Shown one piece after another: positions 3,473 to 33,242 of a stretch of DNA of 64,000 nt. This stretch comes from Actinomyces sp. oral taxon 171 str. F0337. Its GTDB lineage: Bacteria > Actinomycetota > Actinomycetes > Actinomycetales > Actinomycetaceae. The notes beneath the pieces were generated by a model that saw only the letters and a program-made list of their open reading frames with translations, did no database searches and was not told the DNA's origin. Where the stretch lies: assembly GCF_005696555.1 (NCBI RefSeq), contig NZ_CP040005.1, positions 806,001 through 870,000 of the forward strand. Reading direction: 5' to 3'. Numbering within the stretch: position 1 is the stretch's first letter; every line of letters begins with the position of its first letter. The translations under genes were made by a program, and so were the position numbers.

Positions 3473-3486
3473 TTTGTCCAGACTAA
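3473..3486. promoter_or_regulatory. IolR-like operator in front of the TauE gene
   Basis: TTTGTCCAGACTAA matches the cluster consensus TTTGTC-NN-GACAAA except in the last positions of the right arm. It lies 43 bp upstream of GTG 3430. It is the weakest of the well-placed sites. Confidence 0.5.
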
Positions 3487-3563
3487 TGTATGACCGTCGA
3501 CGGCGAGGACCGATGGGGGCCTCGCCATCGACGGTGACCTGTGTGAGGTCCACCAGGTGCGGC

Positions 3564-4562
3564 TCAGAGCCGGGCGGCGGCCTCCAGGAGGTTGCGTGCG
3601 GAGATCTGGAGCCCCTTGACGTTGCCGTACTCGGCGTCCTCGTGCTCGATGTTGACGTTCATCTCCGGATCGATCTCGGTGATGGCGGCCAGGAACCGAG
3701 CCCAGTAGTCGGTGTCGTGCCCCAGGCCGAGGGCGACGAACCGCCAGGCCGGGTCCTGCGGCCAGGAATTGCACCAGTAGCCGTAGGCCACCGGGACCTT
3801 GCCCTCCGCCTCAGCGGGAACGCGGCCGAAGTCGGTGTCCAGGACCCCTCGGTAGGCGGCTCCGGGGAAGACCCTGGTGTCCTTGGCGTGGACGTGTCCC
3901 ACCAGGGAGCCCAGGCGCTTGGTGGCCTCGATCGGGTCCATCTGCTGCCAGAACAGGTGGGAGGGATCCATGTTGACCTTGATATGGGTCGCCCCGGTCT
4001 CCTCGACAAGCCTCTCGAAGGAGGGGACGTTGAAGACCAGGTTGCGCGGGTGCAGCTCCAGGCAGACCTGGACGTCGTTGTCGCGGGCCAGGGCGTCGAT
4101 CTCCTTGAAGAAGGGGACGACGACGCTCCACTGGTAGTCCAGGATCTCCATGTCGATCCCGTTCCAGGGGTTGACCACCCAGGTGGGGTACTTCGCGCTC
4201 GGGTCGGTGCCGGGGGTACCGGACATGGTGACGATCTCCTTGACGCCGAGCAGACCGGCCAGGCGGATGGCTGCCCGGATGTCCTCGGCGTGCTTGAGTC
4301 CCTCGTTGGGCAGCGGGGAGGTGGGGTTGCCCGAGGTATTGAGGCCTGAGAGCGTCATCGCCTTGTCCTTGAAGACGCCCAGGTACTCCTCGCGGGCGGT
4401 GGACGAGGCCAGCAGGGCGTCGACGGGGCAGTGCGGGGAGGGGATGAATCCTCCGACGTTGACCTCCGCCCCAGTAAGCCCCGCGTCCTTGAGGACGTCG
4501 AGGGCCTCGGGCAGGGAACGGTCCTGGAGGCAGGCGGTGTAGGCGCCGTAGGTCAGCGGCAT
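3564..4562 (-). CDS. Sugar phosphate isomerase/epimerase-type TIM-barrel protein
   Basis: A 332-residue protein of the xylose-isomerase-like TIM-barrel superfamily. The metal-binding pattern is visible as Glu in VCLELHP, Asp in VNMDPSHLFWQ, His in VGHVHAKD and Glu in NIEHEDAE. A conserved early segment GGFIPSPHCP and TMSGTPG are also typical. Members of this branch act on inosose-like or 3-keto sugars as isomerases, dehydratases or beta-eliminating lyases; the exact reaction is not known here. ATG 4562 has an AAGGAG site upstream and is preferred over an upstream ATG that lacks one. It follows the oxidoreductase at 4660-5886 by 97 bp on the same strand, suggesting that it processes the keto product of that enzyme. 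Confidence 0.75.
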   Translation of the reverse strand: MPLTYGAYTACLQDRSLPEALDVLKDAGLTGAEVNVGGFIPSPHCPVDALLASSTAREEYLGVFKDKAMTLSGLNTSGNPTSPLPNEGLKHAEDIRAAIRLAGLLGVKEIVTMSGTPGTDPSAKYPTWVVNPWNGIDMEILDYQWSVVVPFFKEIDALARDNDVQVCLELHPRNLVFNVPSFERLVEETGATHIKVNMDPSHLFWQQMDPIEATKRLGSLVGHVHAKDTRVFPGAAYRGVLDTDFGRVPAEAEGKVPVAYGYWCNSWPQDPAWRFVALGLGHDTDYWARFLAAITEIDPEMNVNIEHEDAEYGNVKGLQISARNLLEAAARL

Positions 4563-4659
4563 GGGAAGTCTCCTTGCGTGTCGTTCGATACGTCGTTGGG
4601 TGTCGGTGCGTCTGAGGGGGTCGGGCCAGCGGAGCGGACGAGGCACCGCCGGGAAGGTC

Positions 4660-5886
4660 TTACAGGCTCGCGAGCTCGGGCAGGTCCGAGACGTCGACGG
4701 CGGCGCCCCCGGTAGCGGCCGATCGGGCCACGGCGTCGGCCAGGAGCATCTCCCGGTAGCCGTCGGCGAAGCTGGCGCACCGGGGCAGGGCCCCCTGCTC
4801 GGGGGCGACGCCGGCGACCTGCTGGAGGAAGGCGTGGGCCTGGTAGGTGAACTGCTCGATCTGGGTCAGCCCGACCCCGCCGAAGGCCATGGAGGAGCCC
4901 CGTGCGAAGTAGGGGAAGTCGGGGCCCACCAGGACGCGGCGGGCCCCGCCCAGCCCGGCCGGGGAGTTGACGTCGTCGATCTTGATCTCACCGCATCGCG
5001 CCAGGTCCCAGGAGGCGCGGCCCTTGGTGCCCAGCACGTCGACCATGAGGGAGTTGGGCAGGCCCCAGGCCACGCGCGAGCAGGAGAAGGTGCCCACGGC
5101 TCCGTTGGCGAAGTGTGCGGTGAAGGTGGCGATGTCGTCGTTCTCCACCGGCTCGTAGGTGACGTCAGCGCAGTCGCCGTCGCCCAGAGCGGTGCCGCGA
5201 GTGACGTGTCCAGCGGTCACGGGGCGCTCCTTGATGGAGGTCATCATGGCTGCGCCCGAGACCGAGGTGATGGGGCCACAGATGAGCTCGGCGGTATCGA
5301 TGAGGTGACTGCCGACGTCGCCCAGGGCCCCCGAGCCCATGGGGCCCTTGTAGCGCCAGGCCATGGGGGTGGAGGGGTCGACGCCGTAGTCGCACCAGTA
5401 GCGGCCGTCGAAGTGGTTGATCTCGCCCAGGTGGCCCTCGGCGACGAGCTTGGCGAGCTCGGCCACGGCGGCGTTGCGGCGGTAGGTGAATCCGACGCCG
5501 GTGACGCCGCCGGCCTCCTTCTCGGCCCGCGCCATGGCGCGGGCGGACTCGAGCGTGTCCGCCAGGGGCTTCTCGCACAGGACGTGCTTGCCGGCCCTGA
5601 TGAGGGCCTCGGCGATCTCGCGGTGCAGGGCGTTTCCCACCACGATGGAGACGATGTCGATGTCCGGGTCCTCGGCCACGACGCGCCAGTCGTCGACGGC
5701 GCGCTCGTAGCCGTAGCGCTGGGCGGCGTCCTCGGCGAAGGGGAGGTAGGCGTCGGCGATGGTGTGCAGGCGGACCGGCGGCAGGCCCAGGTCGAAGACG
5801 GTTCCGACCTGGCGCCAGGCGTTGGCGTGGGTGGTACCGGCCATTCCGGCACCGATGACGGCGACTGACAGGGGAGTGGTGCTCAT
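4660..5886 (-). CDS. Gfo/Idh/MocA-family oxidoreductase
   Basis: A 408-residue NAD(P)-dependent dehydrogenase. It has a Rossmann start VAVIGAGMAGTTHANAW (about residues 8-24), the EKP motif (HVLCEKPLAD) whose Lys is catalytic in this family, and a GDVGSHLIDTAE segment carrying the usual active-site His. The C-terminal Gfo/Idh_C domain contains VDVLGTKGRASW. Such enzymes oxidise a secondary hydroxyl of a sugar, cyclitol or glycoside; the substrate is unknown. ATG 5886 is chosen because the Rossmann fold begins immediately after it. It is first in a probable operon with the TIM-barrel gene at 3564, and a 26-bp perfect palindrome lies 55 bp upstream. Confidence 0.85.
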   Translation of the reverse strand: MSTTPLSVAVIGAGMAGTTHANAWRQVGTVFDLGLPPVRLHTIADAYLPFAEDAAQRYGYERAVDDWRVVAEDPDIDIVSIVVGNALHREIAEALIRAGKHVLCEKPLADTLESARAMARAEKEAGGVTGVGFTYRRNAAVAELAKLVAEGHLGEINHFDGRYWCDYGVDPSTPMAWRYKGPMGSGALGDVGSHLIDTAELICGPITSVSGAAMMTSIKERPVTAGHVTRGTALGDGDCADVTYEPVENDDIATFTAHFANGAVGTFSCSRVAWGLPNSLMVDVLGTKGRASWDLARCGEIKIDDVNSPAGLGGARRVLVGPDFPYFARGSSMAFGGVGLTQIEQFTYQAHAFLQQVAGVAPEQGALPRCASFADGYREMLLADAVARSAATGGAAVDVSDLPELASL

Positions 5887-5941
5887 GGTTGCCTCGGGTG
5901 TCCTCGTTGACGAGCGGGTGGCGGGTGAAGTCCTGTGCTGA

Positions 5942-5967
5942 CATGAATTCACGCGCGTGAATTCATG
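5942..5967. promoter_or_regulatory. 26-bp perfect palindrome, probable repressor operator
   Basis: The sequence from 5942 to 5967 is a perfect inverted repeat with arms CATGAATTCACGC and its complement. It has a central CG step, as in many LacI-family operators. It sits between the oxidoreductase at 4660-5886 and the LacI-type regulator gene that ends at 6158, so that regulator is the natural candidate to bind it. The assignment of the binder is inference. Confidence 0.65.
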
Positions 5968-6016: not shown

Positions 6017-6045
6017 TTCATCCTGACAAAGGAGTTGTCCTGAGG
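6017..6045. promoter_or_regulatory. Degenerate double IolR-like site
   Basis: Two half-matched versions of the cluster operator lie side by side: TTCATCCTGACAAA at 6017-6030 and TTGTCCTGAGG at 6035-6045. Each keeps one good arm (GACAAA or TTGTC). They lie upstream of the oxidoreductase/TIM-barrel operon, next to the palindrome at 5942-5967. Weak binding is plausible but uncertain. Confidence 0.4.
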
Positions 6046-6157: not shown

Positions 6158-7186
6158 TCAGCGTCCCAGGGACGAGGCGCGCGTGATGAGCCGCGGCTCC
6201 AGGACCACGCTGCGGGCCTCGGTCCCGGTGCCCGCCTCGGCCTGCGTTCCGTCGTCGGACGTGAGCCCGGCGCGCCGGCACACCAGGTCCACCGCGCACT
6301 CGCCCAGGCGTTCCTCGGGCTGGTCGACGCTGGTCAGGGAGAACTCCTCGCGCAGGGCCAGGTAGGTGTTGTCGTAGGAGACCAGGGCGACGTCGACTCC
6401 GGGCTCGCGGCGGCTCTCGCGCAGGACGGGCACCGCGTCGATGGCCAGGGCGTCGTTGTGAATGACCAGGCCCAGTGGCTCGGAGTGGTCCTGCAGGGCC
6501 GTCCGTGTGGCGGGGCCGGCGTCCTCGCCGCAGCTGCGCACCTCGAAGGCCGACCCGGTTGCCCGAGTGGCGTGCGCCAACGAGCCTTCTCGGTCGTGGC
6601 GGGAGGCCGCATCGGTCAGGCGCGGGCCGATGTAGCAGATGGTGCGCATGCCCCGGGATGCCAGATGATCGGCGACGAGTCGGGCGGCGGCGGCCTCGTC
6701 GACCCGCACGGAGTCGACCCGCCCGCCTGGGCTGCGCCGTCCGATGACGCATACGGGCACCTCCTCACCGATGGCCAGCAGGTCCTCGCCGGGCAGCCAG
6801 GGCGAGACGAGGATGATGCCCGCGACGCGGACGCCCAGCAGGCTCTCGACGGCCTGGTGCAGGACCTCGGGCTGGTCGGAGCCGACCGTGACGAACAGGG
6901 TGAGGCCGCGCTGGGCGGCCGCTCGGCCCAGGCTGGCCGCGATCTGCTCGAAGAAGGCGTTGCGCAGGTTGGGCAGCACCAGGCCGATGATGCTCGAGCG
7001 CTTCCGGGCCAGCGAGGAGGCTGAGACGTTGACCCGGTATCCGAGGGAGGCGGCCACCTCCTCGATGCGCTCGCGGGTGTCTGCGGCGACCTTGGGTGAG
7101 CCGCTCAGAGCCAGCGAGACCAGGCTGCGCGAGACCCCTGCGGCGCGTGCGACGTCGCTCTGGGTGGCGGCGTGAGCCTTGGTCAC
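6158..7186 (-). CDS. LacI-family transcriptional regulator
   Basis: A 342-residue repressor-type protein. It has an N-terminal helix-turn-helix and hinge (SDVARAAGVSRSLVSLALSGSPKVAADTR, written here in part; residues about 9-55) followed by a periplasmic-binding-like sensor domain starting at IIGLVLPNLRNAFFEQIAASL. The start is GTG 7186, with AGGAGGAG seven bases upstream. It lies upstream of the oxidoreductase/TIM-barrel operon on the same strand and is separated from it by the 26-bp palindrome, its likely target. The effector is presumably a sugar of that pathway, but this is not shown by the sequence. Confidence 0.85.
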   Translation of the reverse strand: MTKAHAATQSDVARAAGVSRSLVSLALSGSPKVAADTRERIEEVAASLGYRVNVSASSLARKRSSIIGLVLPNLRNAFFEQIAASLGRAAAQRGLTLFVTVGSDQPEVLHQAVESLLGVRVAGIILVSPWLPGEDLLAIGEEVPVCVIGRRSPGGRVDSVRVDEAAAARLVADHLASRGMRTICYIGPRLTDAASRHDREGSLAHATRATGSAFEVRSCGEDAGPATRTALQDHSEPLGLVIHNDALAIDAVPVLRESRREPGVDVALVSYDNTYLALREEFSLTSVDQPEERLGECAVDLVCRRAGLTSDDGTQAEAGTGTEARSVVLEPRLITRASSLGR

Positions 7187-7424: not shown

Positions 7425-8351
7425 TCAGGCCTTGAAGAGGGTTCCCTCAAGGTAGGCGCGCGCCTTGCGGGCGTACTCCAGGGGGTTGGCGATGGCCGGG
7501 TCCTGCTCGGCCTCCACCAGGATCCACTCGGAGTAGCCGTGGTCCACGAGGAACTTGTAGGGGACGGTGAAGTCGATCGTGCCGTCGCCGGGGACGGTGA
7601 ACATGCCGGCCAGGAAGGAGTCGAGGAAGGAGCGCTCGGCGGCCTTGGACTCCGCCATCTTCTCGGGGCGCACGTCCTTGAAGTGGACGTGCTTGACGCG
7701 GTCGATGGTGGCCTCCAGCAGGCCCATGACGTCGCCGTCACCCACGTAGGCGTGGCCGGTGTCGAACAGGAGGGAGACCTTGGCCGGGTCGGTCAGCTCC
7801 ATGAGCCGGATGGTCTCCTCCTTGGTCTGGATGACCGTGCCCAGGTGGTGGTGGTAGACGAGCTCGAGACCGTGGGCGTGGGCGACGTCGCCGAGCCGGT
7901 TGAGGCCCTCGGCCAGCACCGGCCACTGCTCCTCGGTGAGCACCGGCTTGTTGGTGAAGATGCAGACGTCACGGATGCCCTGGACCGAGCCGGTCTGCTC
8001 GGAGACGACGACGCGGGTGGCGCCCAGGTACTCCAGGTAGGCGCAGGTGGCCTCGAAGTCGGGGACGACGGCCTCGACGCCGTCGCGCAGGATGAAGGAG
8101 GAGAACCACTGGGCGACGATCTTGATGCCGCGGGCCTCGGCGGCGGCCTTGACCTCCTCCTTGGGCGGGAAGAAGCCGGCGCACTCGGTGCCCGCGTAGC
8201 CGGTGTCGGCCAGGTCGAGGAGCATGTCCTCCAGGGTGTTGAAGGCGCCGACCTCCGGGATGTCGTCATTGCGCCAGGTGATCGGGTGCATGCCCCAGGA
8301 GATGCCGTGGGGGTCGGAGATGGCGGTTGCGGGGTCGAGGGTGAAGGACAT
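7425..8351 (-). CDS. iolE: Inosose dehydratase
   Basis: A 308-residue TIM-barrel enzyme that matches the classical IolE family along its length. Key segments are GMHPITWRNDDIPE, YAGTECAGFFPPKEEV, QWFSSFILRDG, YHHHLGTVIQTKEET, DTGHAYVGDGD, VHFKDVRP and VEAEQDPAIANPLEYA. IolE converts 2-keto-myo-inositol to 3D-trihydroxycyclohexane-1,2-dione, the step between IolG and IolD. The metal ligands Glu, Asp, His and Glu of the superfamily are present. ATG 8351 has a GGAG site upstream. The gene lies far from the iolC-B-D operon and on the other strand, but it carries the same operator (8526-8539) upstream. Confidence 0.9.
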   Translation of the reverse strand: MSFTLDPATAISDPHGISWGMHPITWRNDDIPEVGAFNTLEDMLLDLADTGYAGTECAGFFPPKEEVKAAAEARGIKIVAQWFSSFILRDGVEAVVPDFEATCAYLEYLGATRVVVSEQTGSVQGIRDVCIFTNKPVLTEEQWPVLAEGLNRLGDVAHAHGLELVYHHHLGTVIQTKEETIRLMELTDPAKVSLLFDTGHAYVGDGDVMGLLEATIDRVKHVHFKDVRPEKMAESKAAERSFLDSFLAGMFTVPGDGTIDFTVPYKFLVDHGYSEWILVEAEQDPAIANPLEYARKARAYLEGTLFKA

Positions 8352-8525
8352 CGTTGCTCCGTGTTCTCGCTCGTGTGGTGATGTGCGGTGGTGAGTGGGT
8401 GGGTGGCGGTGAGGCGCGGGTGGCTGGTGCGCCGTCGGCTCGTGTCCGCCAGTGGTGCGCTCCCGGGAGGAGGGGCCGGCGTCGGTGCCGGGTGGTGGCC
8501 CGTGCAACGAACCTAGCAACAGGAC

Positions 8526-8547
8526 TTTGTCCTGACAAGCCCTTGTC
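8526..8547. promoter_or_regulatory. IolR-type operator upstream of iolE
   Basis: TTTGTCCTGACAAG (8526-8539) is a nearly perfect copy of the cluster operator. A third half-site TTGTC follows at 8543-8547. It is located 175 bp upstream of the iolE start in the 231-bp gap after the transporter gene. Confidence 0.75.
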
Positions 8548-10333: not shown

Positions 10334-11530
10334 TCAGGCGTCGAAGGTGGTGCGTCCTTCGACGCGGGGGACCTCGTGCCACTGGCCGTCGGCCGCCGAG
10401 GCGACAACGGCCTCGTCGACCTCCGCGGCGCACCAGGCGTCGGCGGCCGAGGGGGCCACCTGCTTGCCGGTGAGGATGGACTCGATGAACTGTGCGGCCT
10501 CGATGGCCTTCATGTCGTCGAAGCCCATGGAGGTGCCGATGGCGGGCTGGAAGCGCTGCCACTGGCCCCACTGGGGGCCGGCCATGGCGCGGGTGTAACC
10601 GTGGGAGGCGCCGCCGTCGAGCACGGGGCAGATCTCCAGCTCGTTGAGGCGCTCGAAGTTCCACCGGGCCGAGCCCTTCGTGCCGTAGACCTCGACGACG
10701 TACTCGGCGCGCGGTCCCACGCTGACGAGGGAGGACTCCATGGTCCCCACGGTGCCGTTCTCGAAGCGCACGAGCATGGAGACGTAGTCCTCGTTCTCCA
10801 CCGGGCCCACCTCGTCGCCGATCTCGAATCCCGAGTGGCCGATACCCATCTTGGTGGGGATGGGGCGCTCAGTGATGAAGGTGTCGGTGACCGCGGTGAC
10901 CGAGGAGATGCGACCCACGATGTACTGGGCCAGGTCCGCCCCGTGGCTCATGAGGTCGGGCACGACGCCGGCCCCGGCCTTCTCCTTCGAGGCCCGCCAG
11001 GTCAGGGGGCCCATGGGGGAGGAGTTGTAGTCGGCGATGAACCACACGCGCACGTTCGTGATCCGTCCCAGCTCGCCGCCGCGCACCAGGGAGCGCAGGT
11101 ACTCAATGGCCGGGGTGTGGCGGTAGTTGAAGCCAACGGCGGTCGTCAGTCCCGCCTTCTCGGCGGCCTGAGCGATCTCCCGGGACTGCGCGGCGCTGAC
11201 CCCCATGGGCTTCTCGATCCAGAAGGGCTTGCCGGCCTCGATGGCCGCCATGGCCATCTCGTGGTGGAGGAAGTTGGGGGCGCAGATGGAGACGGCCTCC
11301 ACCTCGGGGTCGGCCAGCAGGTCGCGGTAGTCGGCGTAGGCGCGCTCGAAGCCCAGGTTGTCCACCGCCTCCTGGCGCACCTCGTCCACTGGGTCGGCGG
11401 CGGCGACCAGGCGCGGGACTACTTCCAGCTCGGGGAAGCGCTCGGCGATGGCGCGGTAGCTGCGGGAGTGAAGCCGTCCCATCCAGCCCAGGGAGATGAC
11501 TCCGATACCCAGTATTCTCTTGTCGGTCAT
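10334..11530 (-). CDS. Gfo/Idh/MocA-family oxidoreductase
   Basis: A 398-residue NAD(P)-dependent dehydrogenase. The Rossmann start is IGVISLGWMGRLHSRSYRA, the EKP motif is FWIEKPMGVS, and DLMSHGADLAQYIVG carries the usual active-site His region; VVEVYGTKGSARW marks the C-terminal domain. It is related to the oxidoreductase at 4660 but clearly diverged. ATG 11530 has AAGGA upstream; a longer frame to 11632 would run through an inverted repeat and is rejected. It is the first gene of an oxidoreductase-transporter unit under an IolR-type operator at 11639-11652. The substrate is not known; a sugar, cyclitol or glycoside is likely. Confidence 0.85.
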   Translation of the reverse strand: MTDKRILGIGVISLGWMGRLHSRSYRAIAERFPELEVVPRLVAAADPVDEVRQEAVDNLGFERAYADYRDLLADPEVEAVSICAPNFLHHEMAMAAIEAGKPFWIEKPMGVSAAQSREIAQAAEKAGLTTAVGFNYRHTPAIEYLRSLVRGGELGRITNVRVWFIADYNSSPMGPLTWRASKEKAGAGVVPDLMSHGADLAQYIVGRISSVTAVTDTFITERPIPTKMGIGHSGFEIGDEVGPVENEDYVSMLVRFENGTVGTMESSLVSVGPRAEYVVEVYGTKGSARWNFERLNELEICPVLDGGASHGYTRAMAGPQWGQWQRFQPAIGTSMGFDDMKAIEAAQFIESILTGKQVAPSAADAWCAAEVDEAVVASAADGQWHEVPRVEGRTTFDA

Positions 11531-11541
11531 TACGGTCCTTC

Positions 11542-11557
11542 CCGACAACATTGTCGG
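11542..11557. promoter_or_regulatory. Inverted GACAA/TTGTC repeat near the start of the 10334 gene
   Basis: CCGACAA-CA-TTGTCGG is a 7+7 inverted repeat with a 2-base spacer, 12 bp upstream of ATG 11530. The arms are the IolR-type half-sites in the opposite orientation. It could be a second operator or an mRNA hairpin next to the ribosome site. Confidence 0.45.
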
Positions 11558-11638
11558 CTGCTGCGTGTGTGGAAGTGCGTCCGGAAGCCCCAGGAAGCAC
11601 CTGTCGTTAATGACGTCACAGGAAGATATCAAAGCACC

Positions 11639-11652
11639 TTTGTCCTGACAAG
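11639..11652. promoter_or_regulatory. IolR-type operator, oxidoreductase-transporter unit
   Basis: TTTGTCCTGACAAG is identical to the site in front of iolE. It lies 109 bp upstream of ATG 11530 in the divergent region shared with the LacI gene at 11812. Confidence 0.75.
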
Positions 11653-11811
11653 AGGGGAATATGAGGTCTGATGACCGCCCTGAGCAGGGACTACTTGCTC
11701 GCCAGCGTTGTCAGATAAGATGCTCTCGACTGGTGTCCAACGATGGACCCCGGTTCCCGCGGATCATGCAGGTTCGCGAGGCACAACGGCGTGGAAAGGG
11801 AGACGTCTGCC

Positions 11812-14054: not shown

Positions 14055-15044
14055 TCAGCTCAGACGCACCGGCTGTCCGGAGTGGGCCGACTCCGTGGCG
14101 GCCTCGGCCAGGCGCAGGGCCGCGATGGCGTCCTCGATGCCGGTGGGGGGCGTGGTGCCGGCCTCGACGGCCTCGATGAAGGCGCTCAGCTCGATGCGGT
14201 AGGCGTCGGCGTAGCGCTCCAGGAAGAAGTCGAGGTAGGGCTCCTGGGCGTCGGTGACCTCGCCGTTGGACAGGCGCACCGTGGTGGCGCGGATGTTCTC
14301 TGCGAACAGGGCGCCCTCGCGGCCCGAGGCCTCGAGGCGCTGGTCGTAGCCGGAGGAGCAGTGGCGGTTGTTGATGATCGTGGCCACGGCGCCCGAGGCG
14401 GCCTTGAGGGTGACGACGGCGGCGTCGAAGTCGCCGGTGTCCTTCAGGGACGGGTCGAGGTTCTGCCCGGCGGCGTAGACCTCCTCGATCTCGCCCAGGA
14501 AGAAGCGGGCGGTGTCGAAGTCGTGGATGGTCATGTCGCGGAAGATGCCGCCGGAGACCTTGATGTACTCCGCCGGCGGGGCGGCCGGGTCGCGGCTGAT
14601 GATGGTCAGCTGCTCGATATCGCCGATCCTGCCGGCCTCGACCGCGGCGCGGGCGGCGGCGAAGCTGGGGTCGAAGCGGCGGTTGAAGCCGAACATGACG
14701 GGGACCTTGACGGCGTCGAGCTCGGCCTGGGCGGCCTCGACGTCCTTCATGTCCAGAGCGATCGGCTTCTCGCACAGCACCGCCTTGCCCGCCTTGGCGG
14801 CGGCCAGCAGGTGGGGGATGTGCAGCGGCGTGGGGGAGCCGACGATGACGGCGTCGATCTCGGGGTCGGCGAAGACCTCCTCGGCGTCCTTGCATGACCG
14901 GGCCCCGTAGGTGGCGGCGAGCTTCTCGGCCGCGTCCTCGAAGGGGTCGCAGACCAGGGCGAGCTCGGCCTGGGGGTGGGCGGCGATGGTCTTGGCGTGG
15001 ACGTGGCCGATGCGGCCGGCACCGATGACGGCGATGGAGAGCAT
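14055..15044 (-). CDS. Inositol 2-dehydrogenase-like oxidoreductase
   Basis: A 329-residue Gfo/Idh/MocA protein with the features of the IolG branch: Rossmann start IAVIGAGRIGHVHAKTI, VLCEKPIALD with the catalytic Lys, MFGFNRRFDPSF, and SGGIFRDMTIHDFDTARFFLGE with the Asp/His active-site pair. It probably oxidises myo-inositol or an inositol isomer to a keto-inositol with NAD. It is one of four Gfo/Idh proteins in the cluster and shares the IolG style with the gene at 25505. ATG 15044 has AAGGAG upstream. A terminator (15188-15220) separates it from the transaldolase upstream, so it may have its own promoter; no convincing operator is visible in 15045-15187. Confidence 0.85.
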   Translation of the reverse strand: MLSIAVIGAGRIGHVHAKTIAAHPQAELALVCDPFEDAAEKLAATYGARSCKDAEEVFADPEIDAVIVGSPTPLHIPHLLAAAKAGKAVLCEKPIALDMKDVEAAQAELDAVKVPVMFGFNRRFDPSFAAARAAVEAGRIGDIEQLTIISRDPAAPPAEYIKVSGGIFRDMTIHDFDTARFFLGEIEEVYAAGQNLDPSLKDTGDFDAAVVTLKAASGAVATIINNRHCSSGYDQRLEASGREGALFAENIRATTVRLSNGEVTDAQEPYLDFFLERYADAYRIELSAFIEAVEAGTTPPTGIEDAIAALRLAEAATESAHSGQPVRLS

Positions 15045-15187
15045 CCTTGCTCCTTCTGCGTGTGAGTGGGTGTCTGGGTTGGTGTCTGAACTGTGGACAG
15101 TGGTTGGGGTGGGCGGTTCGAGGGCGCGGAACGTGTGGACATGACCGAACATGCCGTGGACCCGCCCGGCGCGGCGGGTGCCGCTCT

Positions 15188-15220
15188 GGTCGTCCGGGCC
15201 CCACCGGGACCCGGACGACC
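15188..15220 (-). terminator. Hairpin after the transaldolase gene
   Basis: GGTCGTCCGGG pairs perfectly with CCCGGACGACC across an 11-base loop, 15 bp beyond the transaldolase stop codon. Confidence 0.65.
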
Positions 15221-15234
15221 CTGACTGGAGTCGA

Positions 15235-16311
15235 TCAGGGCTGGGGCATGATGACGTCGCGCACCAGGGCGTCCAGGTCGGCGTCGGCCTGGAGGAAGCC
15301 GCGCAGGGTGCGGCGGGTCGCACCGAAGGAGTCGAACTCCTCGGGCGTCATGCCGTCGGGCTCGTAGGCGCGCACGAACTCCGGGATCGACAGGAGCGTC
15401 TCCATGATCTCGGGGGCCACGGGCTCGTCGATGCGCTCCACGACCTTGTAGTCGGAGTCGTTGATGAGCTTCTGCCAGGCGAAGGGCGGGGAGACGACCA
15501 GGTCGCCGCCGACCAGCTCGGACCACTGCAGCACGTTGCGGAAGGCGGCCGACAGCACGCGGGCGCGCAGGCCGCGGGCCTGGAACTCCTGGTAGGCGCG
15601 CTTCAGGGCGGCCACGCCGCCCCACTCCAGGTGACCGGGGTCGATGAAGAGCTTGTCCCGCTTGGCCACGATCTTGAGCCAGTCGTCCAGGCGACCGCCC
15701 ATGAGGGTGACGACCGGGCCCATGGTGGAGACGTCCTTGCCCTCGGCCTCGCGGCGCTTGAGGCCGCGCTCGATGGCCTCACCGGTGGCCACGGCCTGGG
15801 GCACGGAGAAGGAGACGGTGACGTTGACCGACACGCCCCGGTAGGTGGCGTCCTCGATGGCCTCGACGCCCACGGAGGTCGCGGGGATCTTGACGATGAT
15901 GTTCTTGGCCAGGTTGGAGAACTCCTCGGCCTGGTCGGCCAGGGCCTTGGCGCTGCGGGCCAGGCGCGGGTCGGTCTGCATCGACAGGCGGCCGTTGCGT
16001 CCCTTGTGCTCCTCGAAGATGGGCTCGAGCAGCGTGGCGGCCTCGATGCTCATCTCGCGTACGACCTGCCAGCCGATCTCGGACTCGGTGGCCTCGGGCA
16101 TCTCCTCGGCCAGCTCGGCGATGCGGGGGAGCCACACGTCCTTGCGCTGGTTGATGCAGGTGTAGGCGATGGTGGGGTTGCAGGTGGCGCCCACACCGCC
16201 GAAGGAGATGGACTGGCGCAGCTCGTCGGGGTCGGCTGAGTCGTTCCACAGGGCGGTGGGCGTGTTGCGGGCGGCGTCGAGAAGGGGTCCGGGGGTGTAG
16301 TCGATGCTCAT
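15235..16311 (-). CDS. Transaldolase family protein
   Basis: A 358-residue class I aldolase of the transaldolase family. The Schiff-base Lys is seen in NIIVKIPATSVG, and GVSVNVTVSFSVPQA, FGGVGATCNPT and FIDPGHLEWGGVAA fit the barrel. Transaldolases transfer dihydroxyacetone units between sugar phosphates. The protein belongs to a longer divergent group rather than the housekeeping TalB type, so the substrate is uncertain. ATG 16311 has AAAGAGAG upstream; an ATG at 16338 is a possible alternative. An IolR-type operator lies 100 bp upstream, tying it to the inositol regulon. Confidence 0.8.
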   Translation of the reverse strand: MSIDYTPGPLLDAARNTPTALWNDSADPDELRQSISFGGVGATCNPTIAYTCINQRKDVWLPRIAELAEEMPEATESEIGWQVVREMSIEAATLLEPIFEEHKGRNGRLSMQTDPRLARSAKALADQAEEFSNLAKNIIVKIPATSVGVEAIEDATYRGVSVNVTVSFSVPQAVATGEAIERGLKRREAEGKDVSTMGPVVTLMGGRLDDWLKIVAKRDKLFIDPGHLEWGGVAALKRAYQEFQARGLRARVLSAAFRNVLQWSELVGGDLVVSPPFAWQKLINDSDYKVVERIDEPVAPEIMETLLSIPEFVRAYEPDGMTPEEFDSFGATRRTLRGFLQADADLDALVRDVIMPQP

Positions 16312-16410
16312 CGGTTCTGTGCTCTCTTTCGGGTTCATCCGCGCAGGCGTCCTTGCAGCCGCGGTCCGGTAGCCCCTATTGAAGTGCGCTCGACGGCATC
16401 TGTCAATAAA

Positions 16411-16424
16411 ATGTCAGGACAAAG
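16411..16424. promoter_or_regulatory. IolR-type operator upstream of the transaldolase gene
   Basis: ATGTCAGGACAAAG (core TGTCAGGACA at 16412-16421) matches the cluster operator read on the other strand. It lies between the GntR gene and the transaldolase start. Confidence 0.7.
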
Positions 16425-17217: not shown

Positions 17218-17327
17218 GAGATAGGCCTGTGTCAGACGTGATAATGCCTCGAGCATACGGATGCTGTCTGCTGATGTCACGCACTGTCGTCATCCCGGCG
17301 CCGCTCTTCGGGGAAGTGGGCCCTCAA

Positions 17328-17341
17328 ATGTTCTGACAATT
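17328..17341. promoter_or_regulatory. IolR-type operator between iolR and iolC
   Basis: ATGTTCTGACAATT (core 17329-17338) lies in the divergent region. It overlaps a TTGACC -35-like element at 17344-17349 closely enough to block the iolC promoter, and it could also control the regulator gene itself. Confidence 0.7.
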
Positions 17342-22535: not shown

Positions 22536-22630
22536 GCGCGCGCTCCCTTCTGGGACGGGTGTCCCTCGGGTGCTGTGTCAGCGGCGCTGCGGAAGGACGC
22601 CAAGATCACGATGTGGTCAACGCCCCCATT

Positions 22631-22644
22631 ATGTTCTGACAAAA
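22631..22644. promoter_or_regulatory. IolR-type operator upstream of iolA
   Basis: ATGTTCTGACAAAA (core 22632-22641) has the same core as the site in front of iolC. It lies 155 bp upstream of ATG 22799 and just after the operon terminator. Confidence 0.75.
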
Positions 22645-22798: not shown

Positions 22799-24292
<1,494 letters not shown>

Positions 24293-24416: not shown

Positions 24417-24430
24417 TTTGTCAGTACAAA
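24417..24430. promoter_or_regulatory. IolR-type operator upstream of the 24514 gene
   Basis: TTTGTCAGTACAAA is a symmetrical site with one change in the GAC arm. It lies 83 bp upstream of ATG 24514. Confidence 0.68.
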
Positions 24431-26757: not shown

Positions 26758-26771
26758 ATTGTCATGACATT
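26758..26771. promoter_or_regulatory. IolR-type operator upstream of the iolH-like gene
   Basis: CATTGTCATGACATT contains the core TGTCATGACA (26760-26769), which fits the KGWCHTRACA motif. It lies about 45 bp upstream of the chosen TTG start at 26816. Confidence 0.72.
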
Positions 26772-26815: not shown

Positions 26816-27685
26816 TTGGTAGACATCGCCCTTGACCCGAACATGTACTACCGCACCATGTCCACGGTGCGCACGCTCCACAAGGCCGCCGAGCTGGGCT
26901 TCGAGCACGTCGAGCTCTCACCCAACGCGGACTTCCACTTCTGGCACCACCGCCCCGCCGCCGACGACGCCTTCGTCGCCGAGCTCAACAAGGCTCAGAA
27001 GGAGACGGGCGTCAAGGTGCGCACCCTCAACCCCGTCTTCAACTGGTCCTCGCCCGACGAGGAGGAGCGGCGCGCCCAGGTGTCCAACTGGCGCCGCCTG
27101 CTCGAGCTCGCCGACCAGATCGACGTCCGGGAGATCACCTCCGAGTTCTCCGGAGACCGCAACCAGGCCCGCCGCAGCGAGGAGCAGTGGTTCCGCTCCA
27201 TCGAGGAGCTCATCCCCGACTTCGAGCGCTACGGCATCCGCCTCAACATGGAGGCCCACCCCTACGACTTCGTCGAGCTGCACGACCCCGCCCTGAACCT
27301 CGTGCGTGCGGTCAACAAGGACTGGATCGGCTACGAGTTCTGCTGCCCCCACGCCTTCCACCTCTCCGACGGTGCCGGCGACGTCGAGCGCATGATCCGC
27401 ACCGCCCACGAGGCCGGCAAGCTGCGCGAGGTCCACATCGCCGACGGCTTCAACCACCGCGCCAACGACGGCAACCGCTACATCGTCAACCCGCCCGGCG
27501 CCGACGTCACCGTCCACCAGCACAACGAGATCGGCAACGGCGAGGTCGACTGGGACGCCGTCTTCTCCACGCTGCGTGACATCAGCTTCGACGGCGTGCT
27601 CTCCGTGTGCGTCTTCGGCTGGCACGAGCACGCCGACGACATCAACCGCCGAGTGCTGGCCCGGCTCCGCGAGGAGCTCGGCTGA
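26816..27685 (+). CDS. iolH: IolH-like TIM-barrel protein
   Basis: A 289-residue TIM-barrel protein of the type annotated as IolH or sugar phosphate isomerase in actinobacterial inositol clusters. It begins DIALDPNMYYRTMSTVRT and contains HVELSPNADFHFW, EITSEFSGDRNQA, LNMEAHPYDFVE, VHIADGFNHRA and VTVHQHNEIGNGEVDWDAVF. The role of IolH in inositol breakdown is not settled. TTG 26816 is preferred, because AGAGGAGA ends six bases before it; the upstream ATG 26786 has no ribosome site and lies close to the operator. The transporter gene follows after 160 bp, with a GC-rich hairpin in between. Confidence 0.78.
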   Translation: MVDIALDPNMYYRTMSTVRTLHKAAELGFEHVELSPNADFHFWHHRPAADDAFVAELNKAQKETGVKVRTLNPVFNWSSPDEEERRAQVSNWRRLLELADQIDVREITSEFSGDRNQARRSEEQWFRSIEELIPDFERYGIRLNMEAHPYDFVELHDPALNLVRAVNKDWIGYEFCCPHAFHLSDGAGDVERMIRTAHEAGKLREVHIADGFNHRANDGNRYIVNPPGADVTVHQHNEIGNGEVDWDAVFSTLRDISFDGVLSVCVFGWHEHADDINRRVLARLREELG

Positions 27686-27692
27686 CCCTCAT

Positions 27693-27720
27693 CGGCCCTC
27701 GCCGCTCCCGGTGAGGGCCG
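27693..27720 (+). terminator. Possible attenuating hairpin between iolH-like and transporter genes
   Basis: CGGCCCTC pairs with GAGGGCCG across a 12-base loop just after the iolH-like stop codon. It is short and may only partly end transcription, because no new operator precedes the transporter. Confidence 0.45.
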
Positions 27721-27845
27721 CCCACGCTGCCGGCTCCCGCTCCTGCGCTGCGGCGCGGTGACCGGCGGACCGGGCCATCCGGTCCACCCAGCAGCGCTCT
27801 CTTTCGCCTCCGCCAACGATGGCGGACGACCCAAGGAGTTCCTTC

Positions 27846-29462
27846 ATGTCCACATCACCCAGCTCTGCGGCGCACTACACGCCGGAGAAGATCCAGGAGC
27901 TGGTCGACCAGACCCCCGCCTCAGGGCCGAAGCGCTCGCTCGGACTCATCGCCCTGGTCGCCACCCTCGGCTCGCTGCTCTTCGGCTACGACACCGGTGT
28001 CATCTCCGGAGCCCTGCCCTACATGTATCTGCCGCACGGCGCCGACGGCCTGCAGATCACCTCCTGGGAGGAGGGCTGGATCGGCGGCCTGCTCTGCCTG
28101 GGCGCCGCGCTCGGCGCCTCGGTGGGGGGCAAGCTCTCCGACAAGTACGGGCGCCGGCACAACATCATGCTCCTGGCCATCGTCTTCTTCATCGGGGCAC
28201 TGGGCTGCACGATCTCGCCCAACATCTGGGTCCTCTACTTCTTCCGGATCGTGCTGGGCTTCGCCGTCGGCGGTGCCTCGGCGATCGTCCCCGTCTTCCT
28301 CGGTGAGACGGCCCCCAAGCGCATCCGCGGCACCCTGGTGGCCGTGGACCAGATGATGATCGTCTTCGGCCAGTTCCTCGCCTTCTCCATGAACGCCGTC
28401 CTCGCCCGCATGCACGGCGGCCCGGAGGTCACCCTCGCCAACGACGTCGTCAACAACTCCGGTGAGGTCGTCGCCAAGGCCGGCGACAAGGTCGCCTGGG
28501 AGAGTGTGCAGCACTTCAGCAACGTCATGATCGAGTCCGGCAACGGTATGACCTGGCGCTACATGCTCGTGCTGGCCACCCTGCCCGCCGTCGCCCTGTG
28601 GTTCGGCATCCGCCTCATGCCGGAGTCCTCGCGCTGGTACGTCGCCAACCTGCGCATCGCCGAGGCCATCGGCTCCCTCAAGCGGGTGCGCGACGAGTCC
28701 AAGGACGGTTCCATCGCCGAAGAGGTCGACGAGATGCTTGAGATCCAGCGCAAGGAGGCCAACCAGGAGAAGTGGGGCCTGGCGCAGATCATGGGCGTCA
28801 AGTGGACCCGCCACCTGCTCTTCATCGGCATCATCCTGGGCCTGGCCGACCAGCTCACCGGCATCAACACGGCCATGTACTACACGCCCAAGGTGCTCTC
28901 CGCGGCCGGCCTGCCCATGAGTGACGCGATCTCCCTCAATGTGGTCTCCGGATTCGTCTCCTTCGTGGGGTCGGCCGTCGGCCTGTGGCTGGTCACCAAG
29001 TTCGCCCGCCGGCACGTGGGCATCTACCAGGAGGCCAGCATCGTGGTCTCCCTCGGGCTCCTGGCAGCGGTCTTCTACTTCCTCATCCAGCCCTACCAGG
29101 ACGCCGACGGCAACATCAAGGGAGCCCCTGCCTTCGCCCCCTACCTGGTGCTGCTCATCGTCTCGCTGTTCGTGTTCGCCAAGCAGTCCGGAACAGTCAC
29201 CTGGGTCCTCGTCGCGGAGATCTTCCCCGCCAAGGTTCGCGGCACGGCCATGGGACTGGCCGTGGGCACCCTGTGGATCGCCAATGGGATCGTCGCCCTG
29301 GTGTTCCCCATCATGATGGAGAAGCTCGGAGGAGCGGGCACCTACCTCATCTTCTGCCTGTTCAACGTCATGTCACTCATCTTCTACATGAAGTTCGTGC
29401 CCGAGACGAAGTACCACTCCCTGGAGGAGCTCGAGGCCCGATTCGAGAAGGAGTACAGCTGA
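27846..29462 (+). CDS. iolT: Inositol transporter, MFS sugar porter
   Basis: A 538-residue sugar porter with 12 membrane segments: SLLFGYDTGVISGALPYM, GGKLSDKYGRRHN, VFLGETAPKRIRGT, PESSRWYVANLR, QLTGINTAMYYTPKVL and VPETKYHSLEELE. It probably imports myo-inositol with protons. It is a clear paralogue of the transporter at 8583-10238 but has a different C-terminal half. ATG 27846 has AAGGAG six bases upstream; an in-frame ATG at 27819 lacks one. Its position at the end of the iolH unit is the usual one for IolT in actinobacteria. Confidence 0.88.
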   Translation: MSTSPSSAAHYTPEKIQELVDQTPASGPKRSLGLIALVATLGSLLFGYDTGVISGALPYMYLPHGADGLQITSWEEGWIGGLLCLGAALGASVGGKLSDKYGRRHNIMLLAIVFFIGALGCTISPNIWVLYFFRIVLGFAVGGASAIVPVFLGETAPKRIRGTLVAVDQMMIVFGQFLAFSMNAVLARMHGGPEVTLANDVVNNSGEVVAKAGDKVAWESVQHFSNVMIESGNGMTWRYMLVLATLPAVALWFGIRLMPESSRWYVANLRIAEAIGSLKRVRDESKDGSIAEEVDEMLEIQRKEANQEKWGLAQIMGVKWTRHLLFIGIILGLADQLTGINTAMYYTPKVLSAAGLPMSDAISLNVVSGFVSFVGSAVGLWLVTKFARRHVGIYQEASIVVSLGLLAAVFYFLIQPYQDADGNIKGAPAFAPYLVLLIVSLFVFAKQSGTVTWVLVAEIFPAKVRGTAMGLAVGTLWIANGIVALVFPIMMEKLGGAGTYLIFCLFNVMSLIFYMKFVPETKYHSLEELEARFEKEYS

Positions 29463-31017: not shown

Positions 31018-31031
31018 TTTGTCAGGACAAA
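31018..31031. promoter_or_regulatory. IolR-type operator upstream of the alcohol dehydrogenase
   Basis: TTTGTCAGGACAAA is the most symmetrical copy in the window (ATTTGTC-AGG-ACAAAT counting the outer A/T). It is located 80 bp upstream of ATG 31112. Confidence 0.78.
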
Positions 31032-31111: not shown

Positions 31112-32278
31112 ATGACGAGCAACGAGGCAGTCCAGGCCTCAGAGACAACCGCGTCCATCCCTGAGACCATGAAGGCGGCGGTCCTGCGGGACCACGAGGT
31201 CGGCCTGCAGATCGAGACCCTGCGCACCCCCCGGCCCAAGACCGGCGAGGTCCTCATCAAGGTGGCCGCCTGCGGGCTGTGCCACTCCGACCTCCACGTC
31301 ATCGGCGGTGCCATCGCCTTCCCGCTGCCGGCGGTGCTCGGCCACGAGGTCTCCGGCACCATCGTGGAGCTTGGCCCCGGCAACGAGCACACCGGCCTGA
31401 CTGTCGGGCAGAAGGTGGCCGGCGGCTTCCTCATGCCCTGTGGCCAGTGCGACGCCTGCGCCTCGGGACGCGACGAGCTGTGCGGCCCCTTCTTCGACCT
31501 CAACCGTCTCAAGGGCCTCCTCTACGACGGCACCACCCGTCTGGCCACCCCCGACGGCGAACCGGTGGCCATGTACTCCATGGGCGGTCTGGCCGAGTAC
31601 GCGGTCGTCCCCTCCACCGCCGTGGCCCCCGTGCCAGACACCATCGACATGGTGCCGGCGGCCATCCTGGGCTGCGCCGCCATGACCGGTTACGGGGCCG
31701 TGCGCCGCGGCGCCGACCTGCGCTACGGGGAGACCGTCGCCGTGGTCGCCACCGGCGGCGTGGGCACCAACATCGTCCAGATCGCCCGGGCCTTCGGCGC
31801 CAGCCAGATCATCGCCATCGACGTCGACGACGACAAGCTCGCCCCCATGCTCGATTACGGGGCCACGGCCGTGGTCAACTCCGTCACCCAGGACGCCCGT
31901 GAGGAGGTCTTCCGACTCACCGGCGGCAAGGGCGTCGACGTCTCCTTCGAGGCACTGGGCATCCCCGCCACCTGGACCACCGCCCTCGACGTTCTGGCCG
32001 ACGGTGGCCGCATGGTGCCGATCGGCCTGGGGGCCGGCGTGCAGACCGCCGGGGTGGAGATCAACCGCACCGTGCGCCGCTCGCAGTCGATCCTCGGCTC
32101 CTACGGGGCGCGTACCCGCCAGGACCTGCCGGCCGTCGTCGACCTGGCCGACAAGGGCGTCATCAACTACCGCGACGTCGTCTCGCGCCGCCTGCCGCTG
32201 GAGGAGGCCGGCGCCGGCTACACCGCCCTGCGCAACCGCGAGATCCAGGGGCGCGCCGTCGTCGACATGTCGCTGTGA
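31112..32278 (+). CDS. Zinc-dependent alcohol dehydrogenase (MDR family)
   Basis: A 388-residue medium-chain dehydrogenase. Catalytic-zinc ligands are in CGLCHSDLHV and GHEVSGT; the structural-zinc cysteines are in CGQCDACASGRDELC. The NAD-binding segment is VVATGGVGTNIVQIARAFGA. The substrate is unknown; the operator suggests a polyol, cyclitol or aldehyde related to inositol use. ATG 31112 has AGAGAGG eight bases upstream; a longer frame from 31019 would start inside the operator and is rejected. A terminator-like hairpin follows at 32286-32316. Confidence 0.85.
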   Translation: MTSNEAVQASETTASIPETMKAAVLRDHEVGLQIETLRTPRPKTGEVLIKVAACGLCHSDLHVIGGAIAFPLPAVLGHEVSGTIVELGPGNEHTGLTVGQKVAGGFLMPCGQCDACASGRDELCGPFFDLNRLKGLLYDGTTRLATPDGEPVAMYSMGGLAEYAVVPSTAVAPVPDTIDMVPAAILGCAAMTGYGAVRRGADLRYGETVAVVATGGVGTNIVQIARAFGASQIIAIDVDDDKLAPMLDYGATAVVNSVTQDAREEVFRLTGGKGVDVSFEALGIPATWTTALDVLADGGRMVPIGLGAGVQTAGVEINRTVRRSQSILGSYGARTRQDLPAVVDLADKGVINYRDVVSRRLPLEEAGAGYTALRNREIQGRAVVDMSL

Positions 32279-32408: not shown

Positions 32409-32528
32409 TGTCCAAATCGGAGACAAAGGAGCCGGTGGCTCGATCAGGCCGCTGATGAAACCGCGGAATCATGCGGTTTCCTATCGGTGGCGTGAGCTCG
32501 GAGTTCGCCTTTGTGTCCGATATGGACA
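32409..32528. repeat. 120-nt imperfect inverted repeat with inner hairpins
   Basis: The 21-nt arms 32409-32429 and 32508-32528 are complementary at 19 positions. Inside lie a GAGCC/GGCTC hairpin (32429-32441) and GAAACCGC/GCGGTTTC (32457-32464 with 32473-32480). The right arm itself contains TGTCC-GATAT-GGACA. No coding sequence is convincing here. The 547 bp between 32279 and 32825 otherwise hold only two terminator-like hairpins. Confidence 0.6.
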
Positions 32529-32690
32529 TCTCGGCCGCTCCTGTGCCGCTCGGGAGGGTGGTGTCTGCCTTGTGGGGAGGGGTGCACCAGTGGTGAGCGG
32601 AGTCGGTGCGAGACCTGGTTCCGTTTGCGTTGCGGGGAGGGGGATATGAGAAGAGAGGCGCCGCCTGTGCGGTTCCCCTCGGGTTGCCAT

Positions 32691-32720
32691 GGCTGCGCGG
32701 GCTTCCTTGGCCGCGCAGCC
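32691..32720 (+). terminator. Hairpin followed by T-rich stretch
   Basis: GGCTGCGCGG pairs with CCGCGCAGCC across a 10-base loop, followed by TCGTTGTTCT. It is downstream of the inverted repeat at 32409-32528, with no gene in between, and could end a non-coding transcript. Confidence 0.5.
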
Positions 32721-32825
32721 TCGTTGTTCTGTGCCCTTGCCGGGCTGGGTCCGGGGCCTGCGTTGCTTGTGGTGCGTGGTCCGGATCTGGTGGAGCTCCG
32801 ATGAGCTTGCTGGAGTCGTCTATGC

Positions 32826-33095
32826 TCAGCGGGCCTCGAGGAGGTTGATGCCGGTGTAGATGCCCACGCCCATGGTGATCGCGGCCAGGACGGAGGAGGC
32901 GAACATGAGGGTCGGGATGCCGGTGACGGCGCCAACGACAGCCATGACCATGACGGCGAACATGACGGCGATCATGGCGACGGCGAAGGTGAGGCGGTTG
33001 GCGTCGGTCTGCGTGCCGGTGGTCGCCTGGGTGGCGGTGGCAGCAGCGGTGGTCTCGACGGTCTGGGTGGGGCGCTCGGTGGTGGTGGCGGTCAT
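32826..33095 (-). CDS. Small membrane protein under an IolR-type operator
   Basis: An 89-residue protein. The N-terminal 35 residues are rich in Thr, Ala and Gln (TATTTERPTQTVETTAAATA). Two hydrophobic segments follow (LTFAVAMIAVMFAVMVMAVVGAV, quoted in part, and LMFASSVLAAITMGVGIYTGI). It resembles small two-helix inner-membrane proteins, but I do not recognise the family. ATG 33095 has AGAGGA eight bases upstream. The palindrome TTGTCTAGACAA at 33230-33241 lies 135 bp upstream, suggesting co-regulation with inositol genes. Confidence 0.65.
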   Translation of the reverse strand: MTATTTERPTQTVETTAAATATQATTGTQTDANRLTFAVAMIAVMFAVMVMAVVGAVTGIPTLMFASSVLAAITMGVGIYTGINLLEAR

Positions 33096-33228
33096 GTGAG
33101 TGTTCCTCTCGGTGTGTGTCGAGCAGGTCCGCCTGACCATGAGTCGTGCGTCCCTGCACGACTGTGTGCAGCCCGTGGGCCGGACGAAGGTTTTTCCGTC
33201 ACGTAGAACTCTAGGAACACTCCATCTG

Positions 33229-33242
33229 ATTGTCTAGACAAA
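33229..33242. promoter_or_regulatory. IolR-like operator upstream of the 89-residue protein gene
   Basis: ATTGTCTAGACAAA contains a perfect 12-bp palindrome TTGTCTAGACAA. The centre differs from other sites (TA instead of CT or AG). The remaining gap from 33096 to 33543 shows nothing else. Confidence 0.6.

Follow-up and report, generated by a model that had tools for sequence, protein, structure and literature searches.

The window, as we call the whole stretch of 64,000 nucleotides analysed here, covers positions 806001-870000 of the 3.10-Mb single-contig genome of Actinomyces sp. oral taxon 171 str. F0337 and carries a set of inositol genes. In the gaps between these genes (3473-33242) lie 11 palindromes resembling TTTGTC-NN-GACAAA. 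Comparison of sequences makes it very probable that, in this Actinomyces from the oris group, these are the operators of a regulon governed by a GntR/UTRA repressor of the IolR type.

Coding frames were picked by codon composition and named from NCBIfam and Pfam. From left to right they encode a TauE protein (tauE), a sugar isomerase-like protein (apeA), a Gfo/Idh oxidoreductase (gfoA), a LacI protein, IolE (iolE1), a sugar porter (mfs1), another Gfo/Idh protein (gfoB) and another LacI protein (lacI2). These are followed by an aldose epimerase, IolG (iolG1), a transaldolase-like protein (tal), a GntR/UTRA protein (gntR), IolC, a Cgl0159-type aldolase, IolB, IolD and IolA. The remaining frames specify a second pair of IolE-like and IolG-like proteins (iolE2 and iolG2), an IolH-like protein, a second sugar porter (mfs2), a weak sugar-porter relative, an alcohol dehydrogenase (ADH; gene adh), a small membrane protein (mem89) and GuaA.

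The operator-like palindromes and their rarity

The 11 palindromes are listed here with their mismatches counted against TTTGTCNNGACAAA.

3473..3486: TTTGTCCAGACTAA, before tauE; one mismatch
6017..6030: TTCATCCTGACAAA, before gfoA-apeA; two mismatches; 14-15 nt upstream of a conserved TTGACA
8526..8539: TTTGTCCTGACAAG, before iolE1; one mismatch; one half is the -35 element
11639..11652: TTTGTCCTGACAAG, between gfoB (-) and lacI2 (+); one mismatch; holds the gfoB -35 element
16410..16423: AATGTCAGGACAAA, before tal-iolG1; two mismatches; 2-3 nt ahead of a conserved TTGACA-17/18-TTCAAT promoter
17327..17340: AATGTTCTGACAAT, between gntR (-) and iolC (+); four mismatches (counted by eye); a conserved TTGAC- box follows after 3-4 nt, itself spaced 17-18 nt from CAGGCT
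22630..22643: TATGTTCTGACAAA, before iolA; two mismatches
24417..24430: TTTGTCAGTACAAA, before iolE2-iolG2; one mismatch
26758..26771: ATTGTCATGACATT, before iolH-mfs2; three mismatches
31018..31031: TTTGTCAGGACAAA, before adh; the sole perfect match
33229..33242: ATTGTCTAGACAAA, before mem89; one mismatch; includes the mem89 -35 element

These sites score 17.4-25.0 with the full matrix and 14.0-24.6 in leave-one-out scoring; the best other 14-mer of the window reaches 14.0 (at 45075). All 11 are noncoding, provided that the starts of tauE and adh lie downstream of those of their longest frames. Five fit exactly the motif KGWCHTRACA, reportedly that of IolR in Corynebacterium glutamicum, which also occurs at one further place in the window (35495). 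The original prediction had set the same 14-bp palindrome at ten positions. The motif is found at all of them, but 'the same' is too loose a term for sites with none to four mismatches, and three sites (16410, 17327 and 22630) had been placed one nucleotide off as 14-mers. Of a degenerate pair proposed at 6017-6045, the first half stands (score 17.4) and the second is absent among the window matches scoring at least 7. The placing of the sites in gaps before transcription units, outside every chosen coding region, is borne out given the downstream starts of tauE and adh. The set also reaches beyond the classical iol genes, as had been claimed: the TauE exporter, the transaldolase, the ADH and the 89-residue membrane protein (32826-33095) are present. 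A further operator-like sequence, TTTGTCACGACACG (50134-50147), just before a frame of 839 aa (50165-52684), was not accepted, with a matrix score of only 11.9.

A genome scan had been proposed as a check on the regulon. It was run with strict patterns, not with the matrix, and finds the motif rare elsewhere and dense here. With at most one mismatch, the whole 3.10-Mb genome contains eight places, six of them within this 29.8 kb (809473-839242; binomial P 2e-11). The core TGTCNNGACA occurs at 19 places, again with six in this 29.8 kb (P 2e-8). With up to three mismatches, the count in the window is only weakly unusual (13 observed against 6.6 expected; 4 of 100 shuffles reach 13). A reversed pattern used as a control gives, per strand, 15 places against 19 for the core, 18 against 27 at two mismatches and 1 against 8 at one mismatch. 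Since neither the three-mismatch count in the window nor the two-mismatch control is convincing, the argument is carried by the strict matches and by conservation.

Eighteen further places in the genome, chosen because they match, were read individually. Eleven are inside a called frame, two of these (1349448 and 21530) less than 80 nt from the longest start. The first of the two is 71 nt inside its gene's longest frame, and a later start would put it upstream; those at 1586531 and 1972677 are deep within coding frames. The place at 2618372 is outside a called frame. That at 1505675, where a T run ends, occupies the gap before a frame of 161 aa, and 50-74 nt separate those at 3011789, 1060084 and 990490 (two mismatches), all in gaps, from the start of a frame. 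None of the 18 was accepted as a distal target, but the regulon may have a few targets beyond the cluster.

The genes of the region have the following coordinates, strands and profile matches.

2657..3430 (-): tauE, TauE/SafE family membrane exporter; PF01925, 111 bits; start GTG at 3430 or slightly upstream
3564..4646 (-): apeA, sugar isomerase/epimerase-like TIM barrel; PF01261
4660..5952 (-): gfoA, Gfo/Idh/MocA oxidoreductase; profile matches
6158-7186: first LacI-family protein of the cluster
7425..8519 (-): iolE1, myo-inosose-2 dehydratase (longest frame; likely start about 8351-8309); TIGR04379, 334 bits, above cut-off
8583-about 10180: mfs1, sugar porter after gfoB
10334..11632 (-): gfoB oxidoreductase; profile matches; mfs1 is next
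11743-12891 (+): lacI2, second LacI-family protein
14055..15323 (-): iolG1, inositol 2-dehydrogenase (likely start about 15056); TIGR04380, 398 bits, above cut-off
15235..16338 (-): tal, inositol-linked transaldolase-like enzyme; PF00923, 126 bits
16465..17280 (-): gntR, predicted IolR-type repressor with GntR and UTRA domains; PF07702, PF00392
17446..22426 (+): iolC, Cgl0159-type aldolase, iolB and iolD; TIGR04382, PF22649, TIGR04378 and TIGR04377, above cut-off
22799..24292 (+): iolA, (methyl)malonate-semialdehyde dehydrogenase; TIGR01722, 626 bits
24514..26515 (+): iolE2 and iolG2 (inositol/chiro-inositol dehydrogenase-like); below equivalog cut-offs
26816..29462 (+): iolH-like TIM barrel and sugar porter mfs2; PF01261, TIGR00879
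31127..32278 (+): adh, zinc alcohol dehydrogenase (start about 31112-31127); PF08240/PF00107
32826..33095 (-): mem89, 89-residue membrane protein

An IolM-type role for the ADH was not accepted (155 bits against a cut-off of 450). The mem89 protein has no Pfam match; homologues are found in G010, G026, G001, G024, G034 and G018 (G-numbers designate the genomes compared, with our own as G000, and L-numbers the stretches read). None is seen in G002, and the G031 stretch stops short of the locus. The weak sugar-porter relative (29666-30946; 426 aa, 47 bits) diverges far faster than its neighbours, with 45-93% identity in relatives. An Rfam search of the window gave no matches at the gathering level.

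Conservation in relatives, promoters and the regulator

The GntR protein was sought in 59 genomes, and 29 of these were scanned for sites with the strict pattern. An orthologue is present in 34 of the 37 genomes of the genus at 62% identity or more. In a scan of named genomes, the closest relatives are in Actinomyces, namely in four A. oris records (94-97%) and in A. johnsonii and A. naeslundii (91-92%). Where the orthologue is present, 23 of 24 genomes have 2-10 sites; where it is absent, sites occur in none of five. In the 12 scanned genomes with complete site lists, 61 of 71 sites, tallied by hand, lie within 45 kb of gntR.

Ten related Actinomyces genomes were read at a matrix score of at least 14. 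All ten have sites before tal, gntR/iolC, gfoB and adh, and nine have one before iolA. The iolE2 site is present in all six relatives having this gene (one scores only 14.1), and the mem89 site in all eight in which mem89 falls inside the stretch. Conservation has gaps at iolE1 (6 of 10), gfoA (4 of 5) and tauE (5 of 8, namely G010, G007, G003, G026 and G001), and there is no site before iolH in G018 and G029. The site follows its unit through gene loss and relocation: in G010 and G007, without iolE2-iolG2-iolH, it stands before the porter mfs2, and in G003, where the porter is missing too, there is none. Nine stretches from eight other genomes of the order all carry a site scoring 16.4-25 at gntR or iolC. 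Sites at gntR are also found in L086 (Propionibacteriaceae), L087 (Actinomycetes) and L088 (Winkia), with another before tal-tauE in the first two and before tal in the third. This comparison agrees with the original reading: throughout the genus, and beyond it in other families, the motif accompanies gntR and the inositol units.

Several observations weigh against the regulon or limit the force of this conservation. No tauE site scoring at least 14 is found in G024, G031 and G018, nor an iolE1 site in G024, G034, G018 and G029. G014 keeps the GntR gene (66% identity) and a porter, yet has no site at one mismatch; its IolD is also lost. The reversed-pattern control gives 0-3 places per genome, matching the real pattern in G002 (3 and 3) and falling just short of it in G013 (2 and 3). 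The sites of the relatives were chosen by the matrix, so that conservation of the core is partly by construction, and many of the genomes are closely related to one another and do not count as independent. The genome-wide scan with strict patterns and the relatives nevertheless agree, and the proposal of an inositol regulon of at least ten units with a common operator is supported, with about eleven units. We also note that G014, G015 and G022 (L099, L100 and L108) retain the GntR gene without IolD, as would a regulator outliving its regulon.

The promoter register is conserved in six units (counts include our own genome, and G007 was left out). At tal and at iolC, 2-4 nt separate the end of the operator from a conserved TTGAC- box that is followed, after 17-18 nt, by the -10 element (all 11 genomes in both cases; one of them has TTGAAT as the -10 element of tal). 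The -35 element is part of the operator at iolE1 (6/6), gfoB (9/9) and mem89 (8/8), and at gfoA it lies 14-15 nt downstream of the operator (4/4). The iolC pair has a promoter score of 7.9 and the others 7.6-9.2; random windows of equal length reach 7.6 in 5% of cases. Less favourable to the regulon is that no conserved promoter was recognised for tauE, lacI2, gntR, iolE2, iolH and adh, and that the iolA promoter is at the operator in only three of nine genomes.

We infer the identity of the binding protein, the sign of regulation and the inducer as follows. The likely reader is the GntR protein, since gntR is common to the site-bearing clusters and relatives of the LacI proteins are lacking beside some of them (G002, L086, L087 and L088). 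As in IolR repressors of the GntR/HutC type, it has a GntR winged helix (PF00392, 48 bits) and a UTRA effector domain (PF07702, 126 bits), both above cut-off, and its best solved relative is 2ra5 (193 bits). The gene is divergent from iolC with the operator in the gap (17280 / 17327-17340 / 17446), an arrangement found in ten of ten relatives. A dimer of this protein (16465-17280) most likely binds the TTTGTC-NN-GACAAA palindromes. These overlap or abut the -35 region in several of the approximately eleven units; since a dimer in that position would bar RNA polymerase, regulation is probably by repression. An inositol-derived ligand filling the UTRA domain would release the repressor and turn the units on. 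These encode functions for uptake, several inositol dehydrogenases and the full IolG-E-D-B-C-aldolase-A route, together with four unclassical members: the transaldolase, the ADH, the TauE exporter and the small membrane protein.

The two LacI-family proteins (6158-7186 and 11743-12891) are other candidates, both genes being within the cluster and lacI2 sharing its gap with the 11639 site. That one of them reads the palindromes is nevertheless very unlikely. G002 has nine sites scoring at least 13 (seven outside matched genes) and no relative of these proteins in the 20 kb read, and no such relative occurs in L086, L087 and L088, which have sites at gntR. LacI operators usually carry a central CG. 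A palindrome of that type, CCGAAACGATTCGG (24475-24488), is separate from the sites and is found again in G026, G001, G018 and G029; it lies downstream of the iolE2 operator and is perhaps the target of a cluster LacI protein.

Least credible of all is that the sites are mere -35 elements, or AT-rich palindromes that arose by chance in a genome rich in GC. Part of the site does form the -35 hexamer at iolE1, gfoB and mem89, the three-mismatch count in the window is barely above chance and the reversed pattern comes close at two mismatches (18 against 27). But both half-sites are conserved, a separate TTGAC- box follows the operator at tal and iolC, and the strict matches are both enriched genome-wide and linked to gntR. 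For a single site, that at 33229, the question is which gene it serves. It lies between the divergent guaA and mem89, and the guaA match of G024 begins about 80 bp away; however, the conserved -35/-10 pair on the site faces mem89 in eight of eight genomes, and a mem89 homologue emerges in G024 and G034 once small frames are read. We therefore hold guaA to be an improbable target. The leader between this operator and mem89 (33096-33228) is conserved in close relatives and contains a short inverted repeat, GTGC-agggac-GCAC (about 33146-33159), with no Rfam match.

The predicted GntR regulon resembles the IolR regulon of C. glutamicum, where more than 20 genes respond to inositol (according to the excerpts of PMC9603128, PMC6475665, PMC8634428 and PMC5948850), in having a GntR-type repressor of inositol genes, multiple inositol dehydrogenases and two inositol transporters. 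It differs in that almost all units carry an operator of their own (11 within about 30 kb), and in its transaldolase, ADH, TauE protein and mem89; the word 'transaldolase' has no occurrence in PMC9603128. A survey of inositol clusters (PMC9430895, in part) describes a similar core of iolBCDE with regulators, transporters and dehydrogenases, and names Actinomyces. The pathway scheme in that part uses IolC and IolJ, and 'transaldolase' does not occur there.

The transaldolase-like enzyme and its link to inositol genes

Their place in the operator set suggests that tal and adh encode inositol enzymes. IolD is above cut-off in 31 of the 37 genus genomes; these same 31, and none of the six others, have full-length tal and adh (at least 79% identity for adh) (Fisher P 4e-7 for tal and IolD, uncorrected for shared descent); in G012, an 82% complete genome, adh is in two pieces. 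Four of the six genomes without IolD have no tal match at all. The other two (G015 and G022) have fragments only, as if tal had decayed along with the pathway. Nine further genomes of the order have IolD, and this tal occurs in just one of them, G042. There it lies in the iol cluster, and a separate canonical transaldolase is present elsewhere in that genome. The protein falls below the curated cut-offs for canonical transaldolase, EC 2.2.1.2 (TIGR00876, 79.6 against 233.75; PRK03343, 112 against 367), and our own genome has no second PF00923 match.

An alignment of 15 inositol-type and five canonical sequences (G049 was excluded as a wrong-frame read) separates the two at the active site. All 15 inositol-type sequences have Gln121, Met213 and Ser176, where the five canonical ones have Glu, Phe and Ile. 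Lys150 (the Schiff-base residue), Asp33, Asn54, Asn172, Thr174 and Arg216 are kept in all 20. We take the Gln121 site to be that of the acid-base residue Glu96 of TalB, the Met213 site that of Phe178, and the kept Arg that of TalB position 181. With these equivalences, tal keeps the Schiff-base Lys, Asp, Asn, Thr and Arg of TalB. It differs in having Gln121 for the canonical Glu, and Met213 for the Phe that is changed in F178Y, a variant which turns TalB from a transaldolase into an aldolase (PMC3962226, in part).

A possible second branch of inositol cleavage

We propose, tentatively and as a possibility that we would not yet call probable, a second, non-phosphorylating branch of inositol cleavage, in which this distinct transaldolase-like family would act on 5-keto-2-deoxy-D-gluconate and bypass both IolC and the IolJ/Cgl0159 aldolase. 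Working from its name, 5-keto-2-deoxygluconate should have its ketone and the two hydroxyls at the cut bond arranged as in D-fructose; therefore, a transaldolase or an enzyme like fructose-6-phosphate aldolase could cut it unphosphorylated. The C4-C6 part would either leave as free dihydroxyacetone or be transferred by Tal, as a dihydroxyacetone unit, onto glyceraldehyde-3-phosphate to form fructose-6-phosphate. The remaining product would be malonate semialdehyde, the substrate of IolA. More speculatively, the ADH could reduce surplus semialdehyde, and the 3-hydroxypropionate formed could leave the cell through TauE. In Actinomyces the branch would stand beside the classical route, under IolR.

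Sulfoquinovose breakdown includes a sulfo-transaldolase branch, in which a transaldolase acts on 6-deoxy-6-sulfofructose. The branch proposed here would be its carboxylate counterpart. In both, an enzyme with a transaldolase fold would split an acidic ketose, handing its dihydroxyacetone half to glyceraldehyde-3-phosphate so that an acid aldehyde of three carbons remains, and a TauE-type exporter is linked to the set (tauE adjoins tal in L086, L087 and G228 among the regions read; in G100 the neighbour of tal is a DNA alkylation repair protein). The differences are that tal has only 33 bits to BmSF-TAL, over residues 102-184, that the substrate would be a carboxylate, 5-keto-2-deoxygluconate, and that tal sits with iolG and iol neighbours. 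A search of open-licence papers in PubMed Central (titles, starts of abstracts and word counts) found none linking a transaldolase to inositol catabolism.

Of 197 genomes drawn across the class, 11 have the tal family, our own included. IolC and the Cgl0159 aldolase were sought in 12 genomes, namely the ten new ones from this draw, G042 and G000. Three of these, G117, G082 and G146, each a single contig of about 1.35 Mb and 99% complete, have iolA-iolB-iolD-iolE-tal-Gfo-iolG in one run. They are Planktophila-like freshwater actinobacteria of the same genus, and the G117 protein shares 91% identity with one that bears the name Candidatus Planktophila dulcis. The G117 cluster was searched with NCBIfam, and the other two were read by similarity to the window proteins. 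In G117, IolA, IolB and IolD are above the curated cut-offs, IolG is just below (350.5 against 355) and the IolE-like protein reaches 133 against 290. Genome-wide, none of the three has an IolC at cut-off (70-96 bits against 300) or a Cgl0159 aldolase, and tal would be the only such route found in them. Both genes are missing from G181 as well, but this genome is a draft in about 110 contigs; in G201 IolC is present without Cgl0159.

Other observations count against the tal branch. IolC and Cgl0159 are both found in four genomes of the same genus (G100, G189, G218 and G228). In G100 and G228, the two in which the surroundings of tal were read, the gene lies apart from the iol genes. Since other PfkB-type kinases are present in G117, G082 and G146, another kinase or aldolase may act in these three. 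The proteome of soy-grown Propionibacterium freudenreichii lists Transaldolase 1, not 2, in the part of PMC7736159 consulted. Separately, iolB, Cgl0159 and iolC are grouped with a gfoB-like gene in G100, G228 and G230 (L138, L139 and L140). The 20 kb read contains no IolD match in G100 and G228, and this is perhaps another pathway on the same kinase and aldolase.

The simplest alternative to a cleavage role is that tal is the ordinary pentose-phosphate transaldolase of the genus, merely induced by inositol. It is the sole PF00923 match of our own genome, where a transketolase is present, and in G100 and G228 it stands at a locus without an iol gene in 20 kb. A close homologue, P0150, is labelled Transaldolase 2 in one source. 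In soy-grown P. freudenreichii IolC, IolD and IolG1 rise, and the raised transaldolase, Transaldolase 1, is counted by the authors with the pentose-phosphate enzymes (PMC7736159, in part). Such a role is hard to reconcile with the absence or fragmentation of tal in all six genus genomes without IolD, and with G042, which holds the inositol-type tal in its iol cluster as well as a separate canonical enzyme. The active site, with Gln and Met instead of Glu and Phe, and scores under both NCBIfam transaldolase cut-offs also speak against it. We consider the pentose-phosphate reading unlikely, although it deserves more weight than any of the rival readings of the operators.

The regulon itself is of an already known kind, and its operator set offers a testable predicted IolR regulon for a common human oral genus. 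The transaldolase step may be an undescribed way to cut the inositol carbon chain. If the proposed branch is true, inositol clusters without the kinase and aldolase genes are complete, inositol carbon can enter as fructose-6-phosphate, and a textbook step would have an unrecognised alternative in oral, propionibacterial and freshwater actinobacteria.

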